A program made the position numbers and the translations under genes. The notes beneath the pieces are model-generated. The model was not told the DNA's origin, did not search any database, and worked only from the letters and a program-made list of their open reading frames with translations. A stretch of DNA of 64,000 bases. It comes from Armatimonadota bacterium. Lineage in GTDB: Bacteria; Armatimonadota; HRBIN16. The stretch is taken from positions 977,398 to 1,041,397 of the forward strand of contig BPGU01000001.1 of assembly GCA_026003195.1 (NCBI GenBank), read 5' to 3'. How positions within the stretch are numbered: position 1 is the first letter of the stretch; the number at the start of each line of letters is the position of its first letter. Below, one piece after another: positions 46,906 through 58,667 of the stretch.

Positions 46906-47931
46906 ATGGATACTCTGCACATCGGCTTTTTTGAAGTAGACGACTGGCAGGCGCAATACCTGCGCGAAGGCTTACACCGCCTTGGCATCGCCGACAGGGT
47001 GCAGATGGACTTCGTGCCCCACCCGCTCCATCCGGACGGATGCGAAGCGTGTGCCCAATATGACGCTGTCGCTATCTTCATCGGCACGAAGGTGAGCCGC
47101 GCCACACTGGAAGCGCTCCCTCGCCTGCGCCTGTTGCTCACCATGTCCACCGGCTACGACCATATCGACGTAGACGCCTGCCGCGGACGCGGAATCGTGG
47201 TCTGCAACGTGCCCCACTACGGCGAGAACACGGTGGCAGAGCATACCTTTGCGCTCATCCTGTCGCTATCGCGCAAGCTGCACGCGGCGTATTTCCAAAG
47301 CCTGCGCGGCGAGTATGAGGTGCGCACTCTGCGGGGCTTTGACCTGTACGGCAAGACGCTGGGCGTGGTGGGAGCAGGCAGTATCGGGTTGCACGTGATA
47401 CGTATCGCGCGCGGTTTCGGGATGCGGGTGCTGGCGTACGATGCGCGTCCCCAGCGGCTTCTGGCAGACGTGCTCGGCTTCACCTATACCGACATGGACA
47501 CGCTCCTGCGCGAGTCGGATATCGTCACCCTGCACGTGCCTGCGACTCCCACCACCTATCACCTCATCAACCGCGAGACGCTGGGCAAAATGAAGCGCGG
47601 CGCGCTGCTGATTAACACCGCACGCGGTTCGGTGGTGGATACGGAGGCGTTGCTGTGGGCGCTGGAGGAGGGGATACTGGCTGGCGCGGGACTGGACGTG
47701 ATTGAGGGTGAGGAGTACATCACCGAAGAGAGCGCGCTGCTGAGGATGCCTCTGGCGGAACAGACGCTGAAGCAGCTGGTGCAGGCGCAGGTGGTGCTGA
47801 GGCGCGAGAACGTGGTATTCACCCCGCACATCGCCTTCAACAGCCAGGAGGCGGTCGAGCGCATTCTGGACACCACACTGGAGAACCTGCACGCCTTCCT
47901 GCAGGGCAACCCGCAGAACGTGGTGGGGTAA
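46906..47931 (+). CDS. D-isomer-specific 2-hydroxyacid dehydrogenase (D-lactate dehydrogenase-like)
   Basis: NAD-dependent dehydrogenase of 341 residues. Family motifs are complete: STGYDHIDVDACRGRGIVVC, GENTVAEHTFALILSLSRKL, GVVGAGSIGLHVIRIARGFG (NAD-binding), INTARGSVVDTEALLWALEE and NVVFTPHIAFNSQEA with the catalytic His. Arg in ARGS and Glu in GLDVIEGE complete the triad. The closest pattern is to LdhA-type D-lactate dehydrogenases. The ATG is only 9 bases downstream of TATAAT, and no Shine-Dalgarno site exists, so translation may be leaderless. Confidence 0.92.
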   Translation: MDTLHIGFFEVDDWQAQYLREGLHRLGIADRVQMDFVPHPLHPDGCEACAQYDAVAIFIGTKVSRATLEALPRLRLLLTMSTGYDHIDVDACRGRGIVVCNVPHYGENTVAEHTFALILSLSRKLHAAYFQSLRGEYEVRTLRGFDLYGKTLGVVGAGSIGLHVIRIARGFGMRVLAYDARPQRLLADVLGFTYTDMDTLLRESDIVTLHVPATPTTYHLINRETLGKMKRGALLINTARGSVVDTEALLWALEEGILAGAGLDVIEGEEYITEESALLRMPLAEQTLKQLVQAQVVLRRENVVFTPHIAFNSQEAVERILDTTLENLHAFLQGNPQNVVG

Positions 47932-47963
47932 TCTAACCCCGTGCCGCTCTCGGAGGCGAAGCA

Positions 47964-48028
47964 GGCACCGCTGTGCTCCGCCGCAAACGAGGGGGGGCTT
48001 GCAGCGAATCATCAAGCCGGTGCCTTTT
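47964..48028. terminator. Structured 3' region between convergent genes
   Basis: GGCACCG (47964-47970) pairs with CGGTGCC (48018-48024), followed by TTTT. The long loop of 47 bases includes GGGGGGG. It may be a loose terminator for the dehydrogenase gene; nothing else was recognised here. Confidence 0.35.
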
Positions 48029-48079
48029 GCTTGCTGGTCCCGAAAAGAAACGGTTACGGCCGGACGCAGCCGCAGGATA

Positions 48080-49783
48080 CTACCTGCGCTTGTCCACTAC
48101 ATTGGATTGATTGTTATAGACATTATTGTTCTGCAGCCCTACCCGAGCTGTTGACTCAATGTAAACACCCGTCTGGTTACTTCTGCAGGTATTATCTGCC
48201 AATGCTGCTTCTACTTGATCGAATATGACGATGCCTGTCCAGCTGTTCCCCTCACACAGATTGTTCTTCGCCACGAGCTTTGCAGCGTTGTGCGCGCAAA
48301 TGCCATGCTGCGCGTTATTTTTGCAGGTATTATCTGCCAATGCTGCTTCTACTTGACCGAATAGGGCGATGCCTGCCCAGCTGTTCCCCTCACACAGATT
48401 GTTCTTCGCCACGAGCTTTGCAGCCTTGTCCGCGTAAATGCCATTCTTCGCGTTATTTTTGCAGGTGCTGTTCTCTATCACTGCAATAGAGTTCCCCCAC
48501 AAGGCGATACCATCAGAACGGTTTCCCACGAAGTGGCTGTTTTTCAGTGTCACCTGGGCGTAGTCGTCTGTTGCGATACCATCCTGCGCATTTTCCTGGC
48601 ATGTGGTATTCAACAGGGTTGCAGAGCCGTCTTGGAGGATATAAATGCCATTTACTCCGTTTTGTTGAATAACGGTGTCTTTGATGCTCACCTGTGCTCT
48701 TTCGCCCACTAAGATTCCAATACCAGAGTTTTTTTCTACGATACAGCTGTCCAATGTCACTGAGGCTGTGTTCCGGAACCAAGCTCCAATGCCTCCCTTA
48801 AAACGGCAGCGGTAGAAATTTGCTTGTCCTTGCAAAACAATCACAGCGGCGGATTTGTCTTCGTTACCAATGTACTCGAAAGAGACATCAGAGACCATCA
48901 CCTTTGTGTTTGCCATGAAGCCAATAACCCACTGTTTGCTCGATGATACTATTCGTGTCTTGTCTGGTCCAGCCCCGCGCAAAATGAGAGGTTGGACGAC
49001 CCAGAGAGGTTCGTCCAGGTAATAAGTACCCTCTGACAGCTCTATCTCCAGCAGATCTGAAAATGAGCTCTTGCCTAATATCGCGGATAGGTTATCTCGA
49101 GGTGTGACAGTTACTCGCTTTCTCTGGCTCTGCGAGGGGGCAGATTGTGGAATAGCCGTCAAAATCATAGCCATCATAAGGTGTTCGCTGGACACCGCCA
49201 TGTTGAGGTTCTGCCCATTCTGGATGTACTGTGTTGCTACACCAATGACCTTACCAGCTGCATTGAGCACTGGGGACCCGCTGCTGCCCGGTGAGATGGG
49301 GGCAGTAATTTGCACAACTCTCCTGCCCTCAAACTCTCGTAGCGCGCTGACAACCCCCGTACTCACAGTGCCCTCCAAGCTCATTGGGGAACCGATGACG
49401 CACACAGGTTCACCAGGCTTGAGATTGATCGATAAGGTAGTCTCCAGCACTGCAGGTGGGGTAGCACCGGTATCTAGCAGAGCCAGATCCCAGTTCGAAT
49501 CAGCGAACAAGACAGATTTGACGTTGTAGATTCTTCCATTGTGTGCACGCACCCTGATGGAACGCATCCCTTTGATGACGTGATAGTTGGTCACCACCCA
49601 CCCTTTGGTGTGGATGAAGAAGCCTGTGCCAGAGACTTTCTCTTCGGAGTTCTCCGCCAATACCGTTACGACAGCGGGCAAAGTTTTCTCCGCTACCCGG
49701 CTCCAGTCTACCGTGCTTTGCGCCAGTGCCGTGACTGCAAGGGTAGTGAGTGTGAAAACCAGTGACAGACGCACTATAGTCAT
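48080..49783 (-). CDS. Trypsin-like serine protease with C-terminal beta-helix repeats, secreted
   Basis: Secreted protein of 567 residues. ATG at 49783 follows GGAGG by 7 bases and begins a signal peptide (LSLVFTLTTLAVTALAQS). Residues ~20-200 form an HtrA/DegP-like protease domain: GFFIHTKGWVVTNYHVIKGM (His), SNWDLALLDTG (Asp) and SPGSSGSPVLNAAGKVIGVA (Ser), so the triad is intact. No PDZ domain follows. Residues ~235-565 form a right-handed beta-helix of about 22-23 residue coils (NNAKNGIYAD, GNSWAGIALFG). Two 46-residue units are nearly identical at DNA level. The protein may use the helix to bind polysaccharide or protein substrates. Confidence 0.88.
   Translation of the reverse strand: MTIVRLSLVFTLTTLAVTALAQSTVDWSRVAEKTLPAVVTVLAENSEEKVSGTGFFIHTKGWVVTNYHVIKGMRSIRVRAHNGRIYNVKSVLFADSNWDLALLDTGATPPAVLETTLSINLKPGEPVCVIGSPMSLEGTVSTGVVSALREFEGRRVVQITAPISPGSSGSPVLNAAGKVIGVATQYIQNGQNLNMAVSSEHLMMAMILTAIPQSAPSQSQRKRVTVTPRDNLSAILGKSSFSDLLEIELSEGTYYLDEPLWVVQPLILRGAGPDKTRIVSSSKQWVIGFMANTKVMVSDVSFEYIGNEDKSAAVIVLQGQANFYRCRFKGGIGAWFRNTASVTLDSCIVEKNSGIGILVGERAQVSIKDTVIQQNGVNGIYILQDGSATLLNTTCQENAQDGIATDDYAQVTLKNSHFVGNRSDGIALWGNSIAVIENSTCKNNAKNGIYADKAAKLVAKNNLCEGNSWAGIALFGQVEAALADNTCKNNAQHGICAHNAAKLVAKNNLCEGNSWTGIVIFDQVEAALADNTCRSNQTGVYIESTARVGLQNNNVYNNQSNVVDKRR
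48185..48460 (-). repeat. Two tandem 138-bp repeats inside the beta-helix
   Basis: The segments 48185-48322 and 48323-48460 differ at only a few positions and encode 46 residues each, containing KLVAKNNLCEGNSW and DNTC. Such near-identity indicates recent duplication. The unit is two beta-helix coils. Confidence 0.85.
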
Positions 49784-49916
49784 TTGGTCGCCTCCATCTA
49801 GTAGTCTACACAGAAATTGTTGGCACAGGAAGGACACCTTTTTACTGGCAAGTGTACGAGAAACTGTGTTTTGCTGCAAGGGTTCGGGATATAGTTCCGA
49901 TAATATGACAGGGGTG

Positions 49917-51611
49917 ATGAAGTTGAAGATACGAGAGATCGCTATTCACAACTACCGCTCTATTGAGGAAGCAGCTATCCGAACGGGCGACTATTCCTTG
50001 CTGATTGGACAGAATAACTCCGGTAAGAGCAACGTGATGGATGCTATGCGCACCTTTTATGAGAAGGACATCAAGTTTGAGTACGAGCGTGACTTTCCGA
50101 AGTTCTCCACAGCGGATCAGGAAAGCTGGGTAGAGATAGAGTACGAATTGTCAGAAGAGGAAGCTCACACAGTCAGTCCGGAGTATCTCATGAAGGATTG
50201 CTGTGTTCGTCTGCGAAAGTGGTTTCATCCGCCCGACAAAGCAAAGCGGGGTGTCGTAGCCTACGAACACGGCAAGCTATCCAATAACTTGTTCTACGGG
50301 TGGAAGAGTGTTGCTCAGGGTAAGATGGGCAACGTCATCTATATTCCCGCCGCCAGCCGATTGGAAGATCACACAAAGTTTACAGGTCCGAGTGCACTGC
50401 GTGACCTTGTTGTAGATATTTTGACTTCCGTTCTTGCATCGAGCGATGCTTTCCACGAGCTCAGGGGAGCGTTCTCGTGTTTCAGTCAGAAAATAAAGGA
50501 AGAAGTGACCCCTGACCAGCGATCGATATCCCAGCTAGAAAGTCGTATCAACGCGGAGATTGAGGATTGGGGTGTTCGGTTCACTCTGGATGTGACTTTT
50601 CCTGATGAAGGAGACATTGTCCGCAACCTGCTTCGCCATGCGCTAAGGGACAGTGATTTAGCAGTAGAGATGAGCCCAGAGGCGTTCGGGCATGGGCTAC
50701 AAAGACATTTGATTTTTACCCTGATTCGTGTCGCAGCATCCTACTCCACCAGGTTACAGTCCTTGAGGCAAAAAGGCGGATTTTCACCGGACCTGGACCT
50801 ACTTCTGTTTGAAGAGCCGGAAGCCTTTTTGCATCCTCCTCAGCAAGACGCTCTGGATACAAGCCTGCGACAACTTGCCGCAAGACAAAACTGTCAAGTC
50901 ATCGCAGTAACCCATTCCCCACTGTTTGTCAGCTGCAACACAGATGACCTGGTTAACCTCATTCGCGTGCGCAGGGACTCTGGAAAAACGAGGGTAGCCC
51001 AGGTAAGTAAGGCACAGCTACAGCAAATCTTTGAGGACAATCAACGTATTCGCGAGGTATTGTCATCCTCCGACAAAGGAAATGGAGAGAGTATAGAACT
51101 GGAGGCGGTACGACATTTTCTCTGGCTCAACCCCGAACGTAGTAGTATGTTTTTTGCAAACTACGTGTTGATTGTGGAGGGGTTGAGCGAGCAGGTTCTC
51201 ATTAACCACTTTATCAAAACGGGTAAACTGCCTGGTGGCAAGGGGCTATTCGTGTTGAATGCTGAAGGCAAGTACAACATTCATCGGTTTATGAATCTTC
51301 TGGGGGCTTTAGGCATCGCACATGCGGTTTTACACGACGAAGACAGCGGTAGTAAACAGCATGAGTGCTTGAACAAGTTGATCCGAGAGACGAAGAACGA
51401 GTTCACCAGGGCTATCGACACGTTCCGAACTAACCTGGAAGATTTCCTCGGCTATTGCGCTGATAACGAGCGGTGGAAGAAAGCTGCACAGATTTTCGCC
51501 GCAGTATTGCGCAATCAGATCAGCGAGGATCGAATAGATGCCTTCATCGACAAGGTAAGAGCACTGGTAAAACAACCGGATTGTTGCGAGAGTCCATTAT
51601 GTAATTCGTAG
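49917..51611 (+). CDS. OLD-family ATP-dependent endonuclease with TOPRIM domain
   Basis: ATPase-nuclease of about 564 residues. The N-terminal ATPase has KIREIAIHNYRSIEEAAI, Walker A LLIGQNNSGKSN at residues ~27-38, then DLLLFEEPEAFLHPPQ (signature and Walker B) and VIAVTHSPLF (His switch). The C-terminal TOPRIM domain carries YVLIVEGLSEQVLIN (acidic Glu) and AVLHDEDSGSK (DxD). OLD proteins defend against phage (P2 Old; Gabija GajA is a relative). No UvrD-like gajB partner is next door, so this is a class 1, stand-alone type. ATG at 49917 is chosen; ATG at 49905 also fits. Transcribed divergently from the protease gene. Confidence 0.92.
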   Translation: MKLKIREIAIHNYRSIEEAAIRTGDYSLLIGQNNSGKSNVMDAMRTFYEKDIKFEYERDFPKFSTADQESWVEIEYELSEEEAHTVSPEYLMKDCCVRLRKWFHPPDKAKRGVVAYEHGKLSNNLFYGWKSVAQGKMGNVIYIPAASRLEDHTKFTGPSALRDLVVDILTSVLASSDAFHELRGAFSCFSQKIKEEVTPDQRSISQLESRINAEIEDWGVRFTLDVTFPDEGDIVRNLLRHALRDSDLAVEMSPEAFGHGLQRHLIFTLIRVAASYSTRLQSLRQKGGFSPDLDLLLFEEPEAFLHPPQQDALDTSLRQLAARQNCQVIAVTHSPLFVSCNTDDLVNLIRVRRDSGKTRVAQVSKAQLQQIFEDNQRIREVLSSSDKGNGESIELEAVRHFLWLNPERSSMFFANYVLIVEGLSEQVLINHFIKTGKLPGGKGLFVLNAEGKYNIHRFMNLLGALGIAHAVLHDEDSGSKQHECLNKLIRETKNEFTRAIDTFRTNLEDFLGYCADNERWKKAAQIFAAVLRNQISEDRIDAFIDKVRALVKQPDCCESPLCNS

Positions 51612-51789
51612 TACTCTGTCAAGTCTAAATGTTGTTATAGACCACCCGGCGACTGGAAATCGCGGGCAACAACCACAAAACCCCCTTCGGGGGTTGACAA
51701 CCTGCGTGAGCAGGTTTCGTTCCCTGTTGCCCGCGATTTTCAATTGCTTGGGCAATAAAAACACCTTATGGAAAATATTTGACAAAGTA
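51612..51789. mobile_element. 178-bp hairpin element (element 1) with three-way-junction structure
   Basis: Bounded by imperfect inverted ends, TACTCTGTCAAG (51612-51623) and TTTGACAAAGTA (51778-51789), 10 of 12 matching. Inside, an 18-bp stem (51654-51671 with 51725-51742, one G-T pair) encloses two perfect hairpins: AACCCCC-TTC-GGGGGTT (51679-51695) and AACCTGC-GTGA-GCAGGTT (51699-51716), the latter with a GNRA loop. A further 5-bp hairpin follows (51743-51756). It carries no coding sequence. It may be a small non-autonomous transposable element or a structured RNA immediately 3' of the OLD gene. Confidence 0.7.
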
Positions 51790-51808
51790 TCAGTACTTTG
51801 TCAAATAT
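51775..51808. repeat. Perfect 15-bp palindrome at the junction of the two elements
   Basis: ATATTTGACAAAGTA (51775-51789) and its exact complement (51794-51808) flank a 4-base spacer (TCAG). Each arm also forms the end of the adjacent element. Confidence 0.85.
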
Positions 51809-51924
51809 GAATCTTCGCTTTGCTCATCTGGAGGGCGAACCTCTTGGTGAGCCGAAAACCTGTGCGCTGCAACGGCTCGGCAGGAGCCTCGCCCTCCAGA
51901 AGATTGAGTTTTGACAAAGCAGTA
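51794..51924. mobile_element. 131-bp hairpin element (element 2)
   Basis: Ends are TACTTTGTCAAA (51794-51805) and TTTTGACAAAGCAGTA (51909-51924), inverted copies with a 2-base insertion. Inside are AATCTTC/GAAGATT and a perfect 12-bp stem, TCTGGAGGGCGA (51827-51838) with TCGCCCTCCAGA (51889-51900), and an AGCCG/CGGCT pair. The right arm includes the 20-base sequence also found at 9967-9986. It looks like a palindromic, non-coding repeat; any small ORF across it is spurious. Confidence 0.68.
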
Positions 51925-52009
51925 GAGCCTCTGAAAGGAGCAATTCCTAAAATACCCGTTTTTATGGAACAATCAGGTGTAACGACGCTAAGTTAAGGAG
52001 GTATCTGGC

Positions 52010-52867
52010 ATGAGGACAGTATTCTTGCTCGCCCTGTTCGTTTTGGGATCGCTGATTGCGCTAGATGCGCGGGCGCAACTTACGTTTTCCAATACCTACC
52101 AGAAGTGGGACAGCACGATTTACCTGAAAACGGTGCCTTATTGGGGCGTAGTAGTCATTCACTATGTCCCGAAATCAGAGGAAGCAAAACGCAAGCTACA
52201 GTGGTTTTATAATACCGTTAGGAGTCTCTCCGCAAAGCACAGTCCCAGAACACTCGGTTTTTTAAGTATGTCCAGGGTGCGACTAATTGGTAATGAATTT
52301 GATGATGATAATCCTTTTGAAGAATTGGCGCAGGTGTCGGATATCACCTTGTCTTCGGGACAGACCGTACGCATCGATTGGTGGAATGGAAGTCCAGTAT
52401 CATTGCCTGCCGGCAAGCCGAAGGCGGTCACTTTGGTGCTTGGGCTGAAAAGCGGCGAGACGTGGCGATGGCACCATCCCGAAGACGTAATGGTACACCT
52501 TTTCGTCGGCCAGAGCATCGGCGATGTGTTGGACGACCCCATTCGCCCGACATACCGCATTGCGGAAAGAAACGTTACCACATACGTGCGCGTTGAAGAT
52601 GACAAGTTGCAGGTCTACGTCTTTCCTCATAATCTTTTAGGTTTAGACACCTTAGAAAAGCTGCGAAAAGACCTGGGTATGTCCATCGTTTTTTTAACAC
52701 AAACAGGTTTCACCGCACATTCAGTGCACATATACCCTCATGATTGGGTTAAACTATACAGTGAAAAGCCAGAGTACATTCATGGGCTCAAATATGAGAC
52801 GAGAATATTTCCTGATGAACCGTTTGTAGATGTGAAACTGGGCTGGCTTTCTTTCAAAAGGAGATAA
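52010..52867 (+). CDS. Secreted protein of unknown function
   Basis: Protein of 285 residues with a signal peptide (MRTVFLLALFVLGSLIALDA, cleavage after ARA). No family was recognised. Visible features are WYNTV-like segments early on, an acidic NEFDDDNPFEEL stretch near residue 95, several aromatic-rich strands (WGVVVIHYVP, RWHHPEDVMVHLFVG) and a closing WLSFKRR. AAGGAGGT precedes the ATG. Base composition is lower in GC than the neighbourhood, suggesting recent acquisition. It stands alone between the palindromic elements and a convergent membrane-protein gene. Confidence 0.75.
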   Translation: MRTVFLLALFVLGSLIALDARAQLTFSNTYQKWDSTIYLKTVPYWGVVVIHYVPKSEEAKRKLQWFYNTVRSLSAKHSPRTLGFLSMSRVRLIGNEFDDDNPFEELAQVSDITLSSGQTVRIDWWNGSPVSLPAGKPKAVTLVLGLKSGETWRWHHPEDVMVHLFVGQSIGDVLDDPIRPTYRIAERNVTTYVRVEDDKLQVYVFPHNLLGLDTLEKLRKDLGMSIVFLTQTGFTAHSVHIYPHDWVKLYSEKPEYIHGLKYETRIFPDEPFVDVKLGWLSFKRR

Positions 52868-52897
52868 TGCCTATTCTCGAGAGGCAGAGGTGGGGTA

Positions 52898-57728: not shown

Positions 57729-58667
57729 ATGAACACCGAACTGCTATCCCACATTACACAGGAGTTAGGTACCGTTTTCGAGCCGCCTGCAGCCGAAAAG
57801 CTGGCACAGGTGATGGTGTCGGTGTATGAGCAGCTACACGAGAGCATGGTGCTGCAGCGTTTGGATGCGCTGGAGAACGCCATGCGTCGCTCGCACGAGG
57901 AGTTGGCGCGCCGTGTAGAAGAGCAGCTGGCTGCACATCGTCAGGAGACGGACGAGCGGTTTCGCGATCTACGCGAGGCGCAACATCAGATGTATACGGA
58001 GTTTCAGGAGTTCCGTAAGGAGACGGACAGGCGGTTCTTGGAGTTGCGCGAGGAGTTTCAGGAGTTCCGCAAGGAGACGGACAGGCGGTTCTTGGAGTTG
58101 CGCGAGGAGTTTCAGGAGTTCCGCAAGGAGACGGACAGGCGGTTCTTGGAGTTGCGCGAGGAGTTTCAGGAGTTCCGTAAGGAGACGGACAGGCGGTTTC
58201 GGGAACTTGCCGAGACGGTGCGGCTCACTCAGGAGGCTCTGCGCGACCTTGCGCTGACCGTCAAGGACCTGCAAAAGCAGGTTGGTGGCTTGTCGCAGAC
58301 GGTGGGGTACGTGCTGGAGAACGAAGCGATGAAAGCACTGCCCGAGCTGCTTCGGCGCGACCATGGACTGCAGGTCGTGGGGAGGCTGAAGCGCCAGTAT
58401 GTGCAGGACAGCGCGGGGCGTTACATCGAGGTGAACATTTTTGGCACAGCCACGCGCGACGGAGAGCAGGTGACCCTGGTGGGGGAGAGTAAGTCGCAGC
58501 TCTCCAAAAACGACGTTGACCGCTTCCTGCGGCGTACGGTGGATGCTCTGCGCGAGGTGTATCCGAACATCTTGCCCATCATCGTGACACACATCACCTC
58601 CGAGCCGGATGCGGAGGCTTACGCACGCAGCCTCGGTGTGGTGGTGTACTATTCGTACGAGTTCTGA
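57729..58667 (+). CDS. Coiled-coil protein with C-terminal PD-(D/E)XK nuclease-like domain
   Basis: Protein of 312 residues. Residues ~30-180 form a long charged coiled-coil including four 18-residue units (KETDRRFLELREEFQEFR). Residues ~205-312 have a nuclease-like core: RRDHGLQVVGRLKRQYVQD, then YIEVNIFGTA, VTLVGESKSQLS (the ExK pair) and ILPIIVTHITSEPDAEAYA. This matches archaeal and cyanobacterial DUF3782-type proteins of unknown role. The active-site E-x-N and ExK residues look intact. GAGGAG is 2 bases upstream of the ATG. It may act on DNA ends or in plasmid or phage defence, but no partner gene is adjacent. Confidence 0.78.
   Translation: MNTELLSHITQELGTVFEPPAAEKLAQVMVSVYEQLHESMVLQRLDALENAMRRSHEELARRVEEQLAAHRQETDERFRDLREAQHQMYTEFQEFRKETDRRFLELREEFQEFRKETDRRFLELREEFQEFRKETDRRFLELREEFQEFRKETDRRFRELAETVRLTQEALRDLALTVKDLQKQVGGLSQTVGYVLENEAMKALPELLRRDHGLQVVGRLKRQYVQDSAGRYIEVNIFGTATRDGEQVTLVGESKSQLSKNDVDRFLRRTVDALREVYPNILPIIVTHITSEPDAEAYARSLGVVVYYSYEF
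58001..58216 (+). repeat. Four tandem 54-bp coiled-coil repeats
   Basis: Units begin at 58001, 58055, 58109 and 58163 and are nearly identical for three copies, with the last diverging. Each encodes 18 residues, a 7+11 coiled-coil periodicity. Such DNA-level identity favours length variation by slippage or recombination. Confidence 0.88.

Follow-up and report, generated by a model that had tools for sequence, protein, structure and literature searches.

Two back-to-back palindromic elements at the stop codon of an OLD-family gene are very probably IS630-type MITEs

Introduction

The RUP element of Streptococcus pneumoniae, for which IS630-Spn1 is the proposed mover (Oggioni and Claverys 1999, reviewed in PMC2229807, PMC3049150), is, judged by shared features, the closest documented case to the two elements that we describe here, element 1 (e1) and element 2 (e2). 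Like them, RUP is a non-coding element of about 100 bp whose TIRs match an IS630-family element, with TA-containing targets and many dispersed, mostly intergenic copies. Unlike RUP, the e1/e2 family has several unrelated interiors with one TIR pair, recurring TIR-to-TIR tandems, and a quarter of its copies in TAG stop codons; this is a comparison of features, not of sequence. The Correia/NEMIS elements of Neisseria (PMC2229807), compared in the same way by features and not by sequence, are also short, palindromic and TIR-bounded, with TA at their ends and an optional internal segment, but they have TIRs of 24-26 bp and another host. REP/BIME palindromes resemble the interior hairpins of e1 and e2, which are also found alone in large numbers, although here the hairpins lie within a DDE-type TIR shell as well and the genome has no Y1 transposase gene.

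The candidate parent of e1 and e2 has a DDE_3 transposase, as do IS630 and ISY100 of the Tc1/mariner family (PMC2170065), and the preference of IS630 for TA within CTAG (Tenzen and Ohtsubo 1991, cited in PMC2170065) fits the flanks that we observed. Unlike IS630 and ISY100, the parent is apparently decayed in the genome studied here, and the flanks suggest a match over 4 bp rather than over TA alone. A limited literature search found nothing on MITEs in Armatimonadetes, and an IS630/MITE family in this little-studied bacterial group was apparently undescribed before. The elements themselves are of an already known type, like pneumococcal RUP/IS630-Spn1, and are very probably not a dedicated defence RNA.

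Layout of the locus

The window, by which we mean the whole stretch of 64,000 nucleotides that was analysed, contains an OLD-family ATPase/TOPRIM gene on the plus strand (49905..51611; AAA_15, OLD-like_TOPRIM; PADLOC Old 2e-57), which is the host gene of the insertion. Its stop codon, TAG at 51609-51611, abuts e1 with no base between and lies inside GTAG at 51608..51611, the left NTAN target copy according to the sequence, the family-wide NTAN flanks and the use of stop codons as targets. e1 (51612..51789, plus strand) is a 178-bp MITE from TIR to TIR, delimited by its fold, its genome copies and the alignment of their ends. The left TIR TACTCTGTCAAGT (51612..51624, plus strand) and the right TIR (51777..51789, minus strand) were placed from the end alignment of copies and the catalogue of paired elements described below. 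Between them, on the plus strand, is a core palindrome (51645..51752; fold, and TIR-less relatives in congeners) made of a stem around two hairpins, the first (AACCCCC TTC GGGGGTT) at 51679..51695, from the fold and the pair-change analysis, and the second, with the loop GTGA, which is not conserved, at 51696..51718, from the fold and the copy alignment.

e2 (51794..51921, plus strand) is likewise a MITE from TIR to TIR, delimited by its genome copies and the paired-element catalogue. The initial annotation was right about the unit and gave it a length of 131 bp, which we correct to 128 bp, the last bases belonging to the flanking GTAG at 51922..51925; this is the right target copy, identical to 51608-51611 (sequence, paired-element catalogue). 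The e2 core palindrome (GGAGGGCG...CGCCCTCC; 51824..51903, plus strand; sequence, arm count) is a REP-like hairpin with its right arm at 97 genome places, and the right TIR follows at 51909..51921 on the minus strand (sequence, paired-element catalogue). No transposase gene lies inside either element, their 178 and 128 bp holding small mechanical minus-strand ORFs only.

The two back-to-back units are present as first described, and so is the 15-bp palindrome where they meet, an inverted match of 51775-51789 to 51794-51808 with 4 bases between. This palindrome is two TIRs facing each other across the TCAG spacer at 51790..51793, which, from its sequence and from other tandem junctions, appears to be a mutated target-type site common to both neighbours. 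The inverted ends said to be shared by the units were also found, except that the left end of e1 is not exact and reads TACTCTGTCAAG, two mismatches from TACTTTGTCAAA. The outer flanks of the pair are GTAG and GTAG; the inner spacer TCAG is unlike them, which we count against the MITE explanation.

Both elements are in an accessory segment of about 5 kb (47930..52896), which all five congeners compared lack. It carries a protease/beta-helix gene, whose product is a trypsin-like/beta-helix protein, the OLD gene, both MITEs and one ORF (52010-52867) without a Pfam match. The genes bordering the segment are neighbours in the five congeners, where the gap is only 44 bp in G005 and about 1.5 kb in G009. 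Since these congeners lack the entire segment, the window pair itself gives no empty site. Elsewhere in the window, the ORF at 57729-58667 has about four repeats of EFQEFRKETDRRFLELRE.

Copies in the genome and its relatives

A search of the window's genome (29 contigs, 4.58 Mb) with e1 gave 44 matches at E<=0.01, the best non-self match having an E-value of 2e-60 and 88% identity; the matches fall into about 30 separate loci, and many are full length, with 78-88% identity. e2 has 50 matches in the same genome, and 8 of them, window copy included, are near full length. This copy pattern is far beyond chance, and with dispersed copies of both elements present, the mobile-element reading of the initial annotation survives a genome-wide count. 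Full-length e1 was found only in its own genome and in the congener G005 among the 61 genomes searched, while the congeners G001 and G002 have parts of the e1 core only (positions about 37-161), with the TIRs absent. The window's genome and bacterium HR16 (HRbin16) form one genus-level group; we take bacterium HR16 to be a member of the Armatimonadota, its NCBI entry being unclassified Bacteria. In three genomes of this one genus (relatives of bacterium HR16) we catalogued 36 TIR-paired non-redundant elements, a lower bound, as the counts were drawn from searches and fetched sequence stretches.

Beside its dispersed copies, the family has a polymorphic site, seen for one copy. For the e1 copy at C2:62170-62348, the syntenic G005 locus is empty, with the two flanks next to each other; the comparison covers this one e1 copy, in genomes about 85-88% identical there, and the junction is not base-perfect.

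A candidate parent element

Among 84,980 species genomes scanned, TACTCTGTCAAGGCTCAAT has an exact match in one GTDB record, that of bacterium HR16, and there an IS630 transposase gene has the sequence at its 3' end. The element in question (L098:4370-5557) has two reading frames, one for each half of the IS630 transposase model, with profile matches to DDE_3 (8.7e-24) and NF033545 IS630 (6.3e-37), and its TIRs, TACTTGGTCAAAGCTCAATC and GATTGAGCCTTGACAGAGTA, begin at L098:4370 and 5557 with flanks ATAG/ATAG. Immediately ahead of it is a MITE of 175 bp whose hairpin differs, the two having one ATAG in common. A G003 contig bears the same IS630 copy as bacterium HR16 BEHS01000042.1 at 100% identity. 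The genome of the window has a decayed IS630 copy with related TIRs and frame breaks (C2:233424-234576), and by the IS630 models and the TIRs of these two loci, e1 and e2 have their TIRs in common with a transposase-bearing IS630 element. We found no intact transposase with flanking TIRs in the genome of the window, and for that reason the enzyme that moves the elements today is one that we infer, most likely that of an IS630-type insertion sequence.

The transposase of bacterium HR16 is split into its two frames near CTCAAAAAAACG (L098:4830-4930), where either programmed frameshifting or decay is possible. The 4-bp NTAN flanks also prompted us to consider an IS701-type parent, which was rejected, both DDE_5 (PF13546) genes of the window's genome having unrelated inverted repeats, e.g. 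TTAGGAGTTACGCAGT.

Target sites, stop codons and tandem junctions

Copies aligned with their flanks have ends like TACTCTGTCAAGG and TACTTTGTCAAAC, and their flanks are CTAG, CTAC, GTAG, ATAG etc. The left and right flanking 4-mers are identical in 10/36 paired elements, compared to 4.0 expected by shuffled re-pairing (p=0.003), and the fourth flank base agrees in 27/36, compared to 16.5 expected; when tandem members are left out, the 4-mers are identical in 9/28 vs 3.6 (p=0.0024). NTAN flanks in the e1/e2 family thus match beyond chance, as expected of a TA-centred target duplication, and the agreement suggests that the duplication is 4 bp long (NTAN), not 2. Bench-studied IS630 elements, unlike the elements here, duplicate TA only (PMC2170065).

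Of the 36 elements, 9 lie in the TAG stop of an ORF of >=110 aa; the share among intergenic TA sites of the same stretches is about 7% (p about 1e-4). This enrichment is approximate, the gene calls being simple ORFs. The position of e1 and e2 right behind the OLD gene follows from the target, since GTAG includes the TAG with which that gene ends. There is one copy of the OLD gene in the genome, and none was found in the nine congeners searched; being single-copy, OLD cannot be what the insertions into stop codons have in common. As a rule, an NTAN-targeting element will often land in TAG stops and in doing so mimic a dedicated downstream RNA.

TIR-to-TIR junctions with exactly 4 bp between the elements occur in the window, at C2:55978/55983, at C3:508618/508623, which is nearly identical in G005, and twice at C4:67.9-68.1 kb, with further ones at two other G005 places and in bacterium HR16. 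The single shared spacer of the tandems is explained if a later element inserted into the NTAN site that borders an older copy, although a ready-made pair may also have moved. In G000, C1:4834-5160 and C9:19527-19853 are nested elements of 327 bp each whose internal matches are laid out alike; the region may be duplicated, or one contig may be redundant.

Origin of the elements and alternative explanations

We consider it very probable that e1 and e2 are non-autonomous IS630 (Tc1/mariner superfamily) MITEs. The suggestion that they are small transposon-derived elements was part of the initial annotation, and it is borne out by the dispersed copies, the common TIRs, the NTAN duplication, the TIR-matched IS630 element and the empty site. 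In the mechanism that we propose, an IS630 transposase would act in trans on the TIRs, excise the element and join it at a TA-centred site, with duplication of the target. The target here would be GTAG, whose TAG is the OLD stop, so that the stop would be retained and the OLD gene left intact. The second element would then have inserted into an NTAN site bordering the first, unless both moved together as one unit, which is conceivable because the outer flanks are both GTAG; either route would leave two TIRs head to head as a palindrome around a 4-bp spacer. The MITE would carry its interior hairpins passively; such palindromic repeats are also found outside the TIR shell.

The initial annotation had alternatively proposed that e1 is an expressed structured RNA like those of RNA-containing defence loci. 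A functional structured RNA that is part of an OLD-based defence locus would fit the stable fold, which is indeed a long stem around two hairpins (MFE -75.9 kcal/mol), and the position of e1 directly after the OLD gene within an accessory segment, but the association with an effector gene is not consistent, there being about 30 e1 loci vs a single OLD gene and no OLD gene in the nine congeners. A covariance check found that 0/52 pairs had changed on both sides in 19 aligned copies, with standard pairs no commoner than in shuffles (89.7% vs 90.0%), and such a lack of covariation is expected when a palindromic DNA insert decays neutrally. The GNRA loop, which the initial annotation had pointed out, is replaced by GCTA or GTCA in 4/19 of these copies. 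There was no Rfam match at the gathering threshold, and we took the sub-threshold matches, to two microRNA families, a nematode snoRNA and PhotoRC-I (E=0.18), as chance. Given the copy numbers, the missing compensatory changes and the missing Rfam family, we regard such an RNA as highly improbable, and the tempting lead of an OLD-linked non-coding RNA is removed. We also find it hardly credible that a Y1 (RAYT-type) transposase moves the units as REP/BIME elements. The e2 core arm CGGCTCGGCAGGAGCCTCGCCCTCC, with 97 genome occurrences at <=2 mismatches (control 0), is far commoner than TIR-paired elements with that core, and is thus mostly outside them, and this would suit REP elements, as would the TIR-less e1-like cores of the congeners; however, the Y1_Tnp model (PF01797) matches controls such as E. 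coli but nothing in the genome of the window, and the complete units carry DDE-type TIRs and target duplications, which are absent from Y1 elements. With none in the genome, a Y1/RAYT mover was rejected.

An origin as MITEs would be unchanged if the elements were today retained for a terminator- or REP-like role, as hairpins at 3' ends by which mRNAs are insulated or stabilised; this would only add a function. The 9/36 copies in a stop codon speak for this, as does the orientation of the neighbouring genes, whose 3' end faces the element in 21/29 intergenic cases on the right and 21/27 on the left. Such a function nevertheless seems unlikely to us, since convergent placement on both sides is not significant (15/27 vs 43% at local intergenic TA sites, p=0.14), one terminator-like site only was found, not above shuffles, and the bias is explained without function by avoidance of promoters and coding sequence.

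Interiors of the elements

Within the MITE explanation, we tentatively consider it possible, though doubtful, that the system is modular, with different free-living palindromes (e1 core, e2 core, GTCATGCTGAG-type hairpin) taken up time and again by a single IS630-type TIR shell, which would bring them, alone or as chains in tandem, preferentially into TAG stops. If true, genes would gain 3'-end hairpins with their coding sequence kept. The interior palindromes do occur without a TIR shell as well, and a chimera of e1 and e2 interiors within one shell was found at C4:253249-253474. The elements at L098:4191-4365 and L064:1097-1406 are TIR-bounded and have another interior, with a GTCATGCTGAGCGTCAGCGAAGCATCTC-type hairpin. 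At L022:1480-1650, an e1-type core is found inside a different repeat (GCGAGCTGCGAAGCAGCGA-type), so that palindromes are nested in palindromes.
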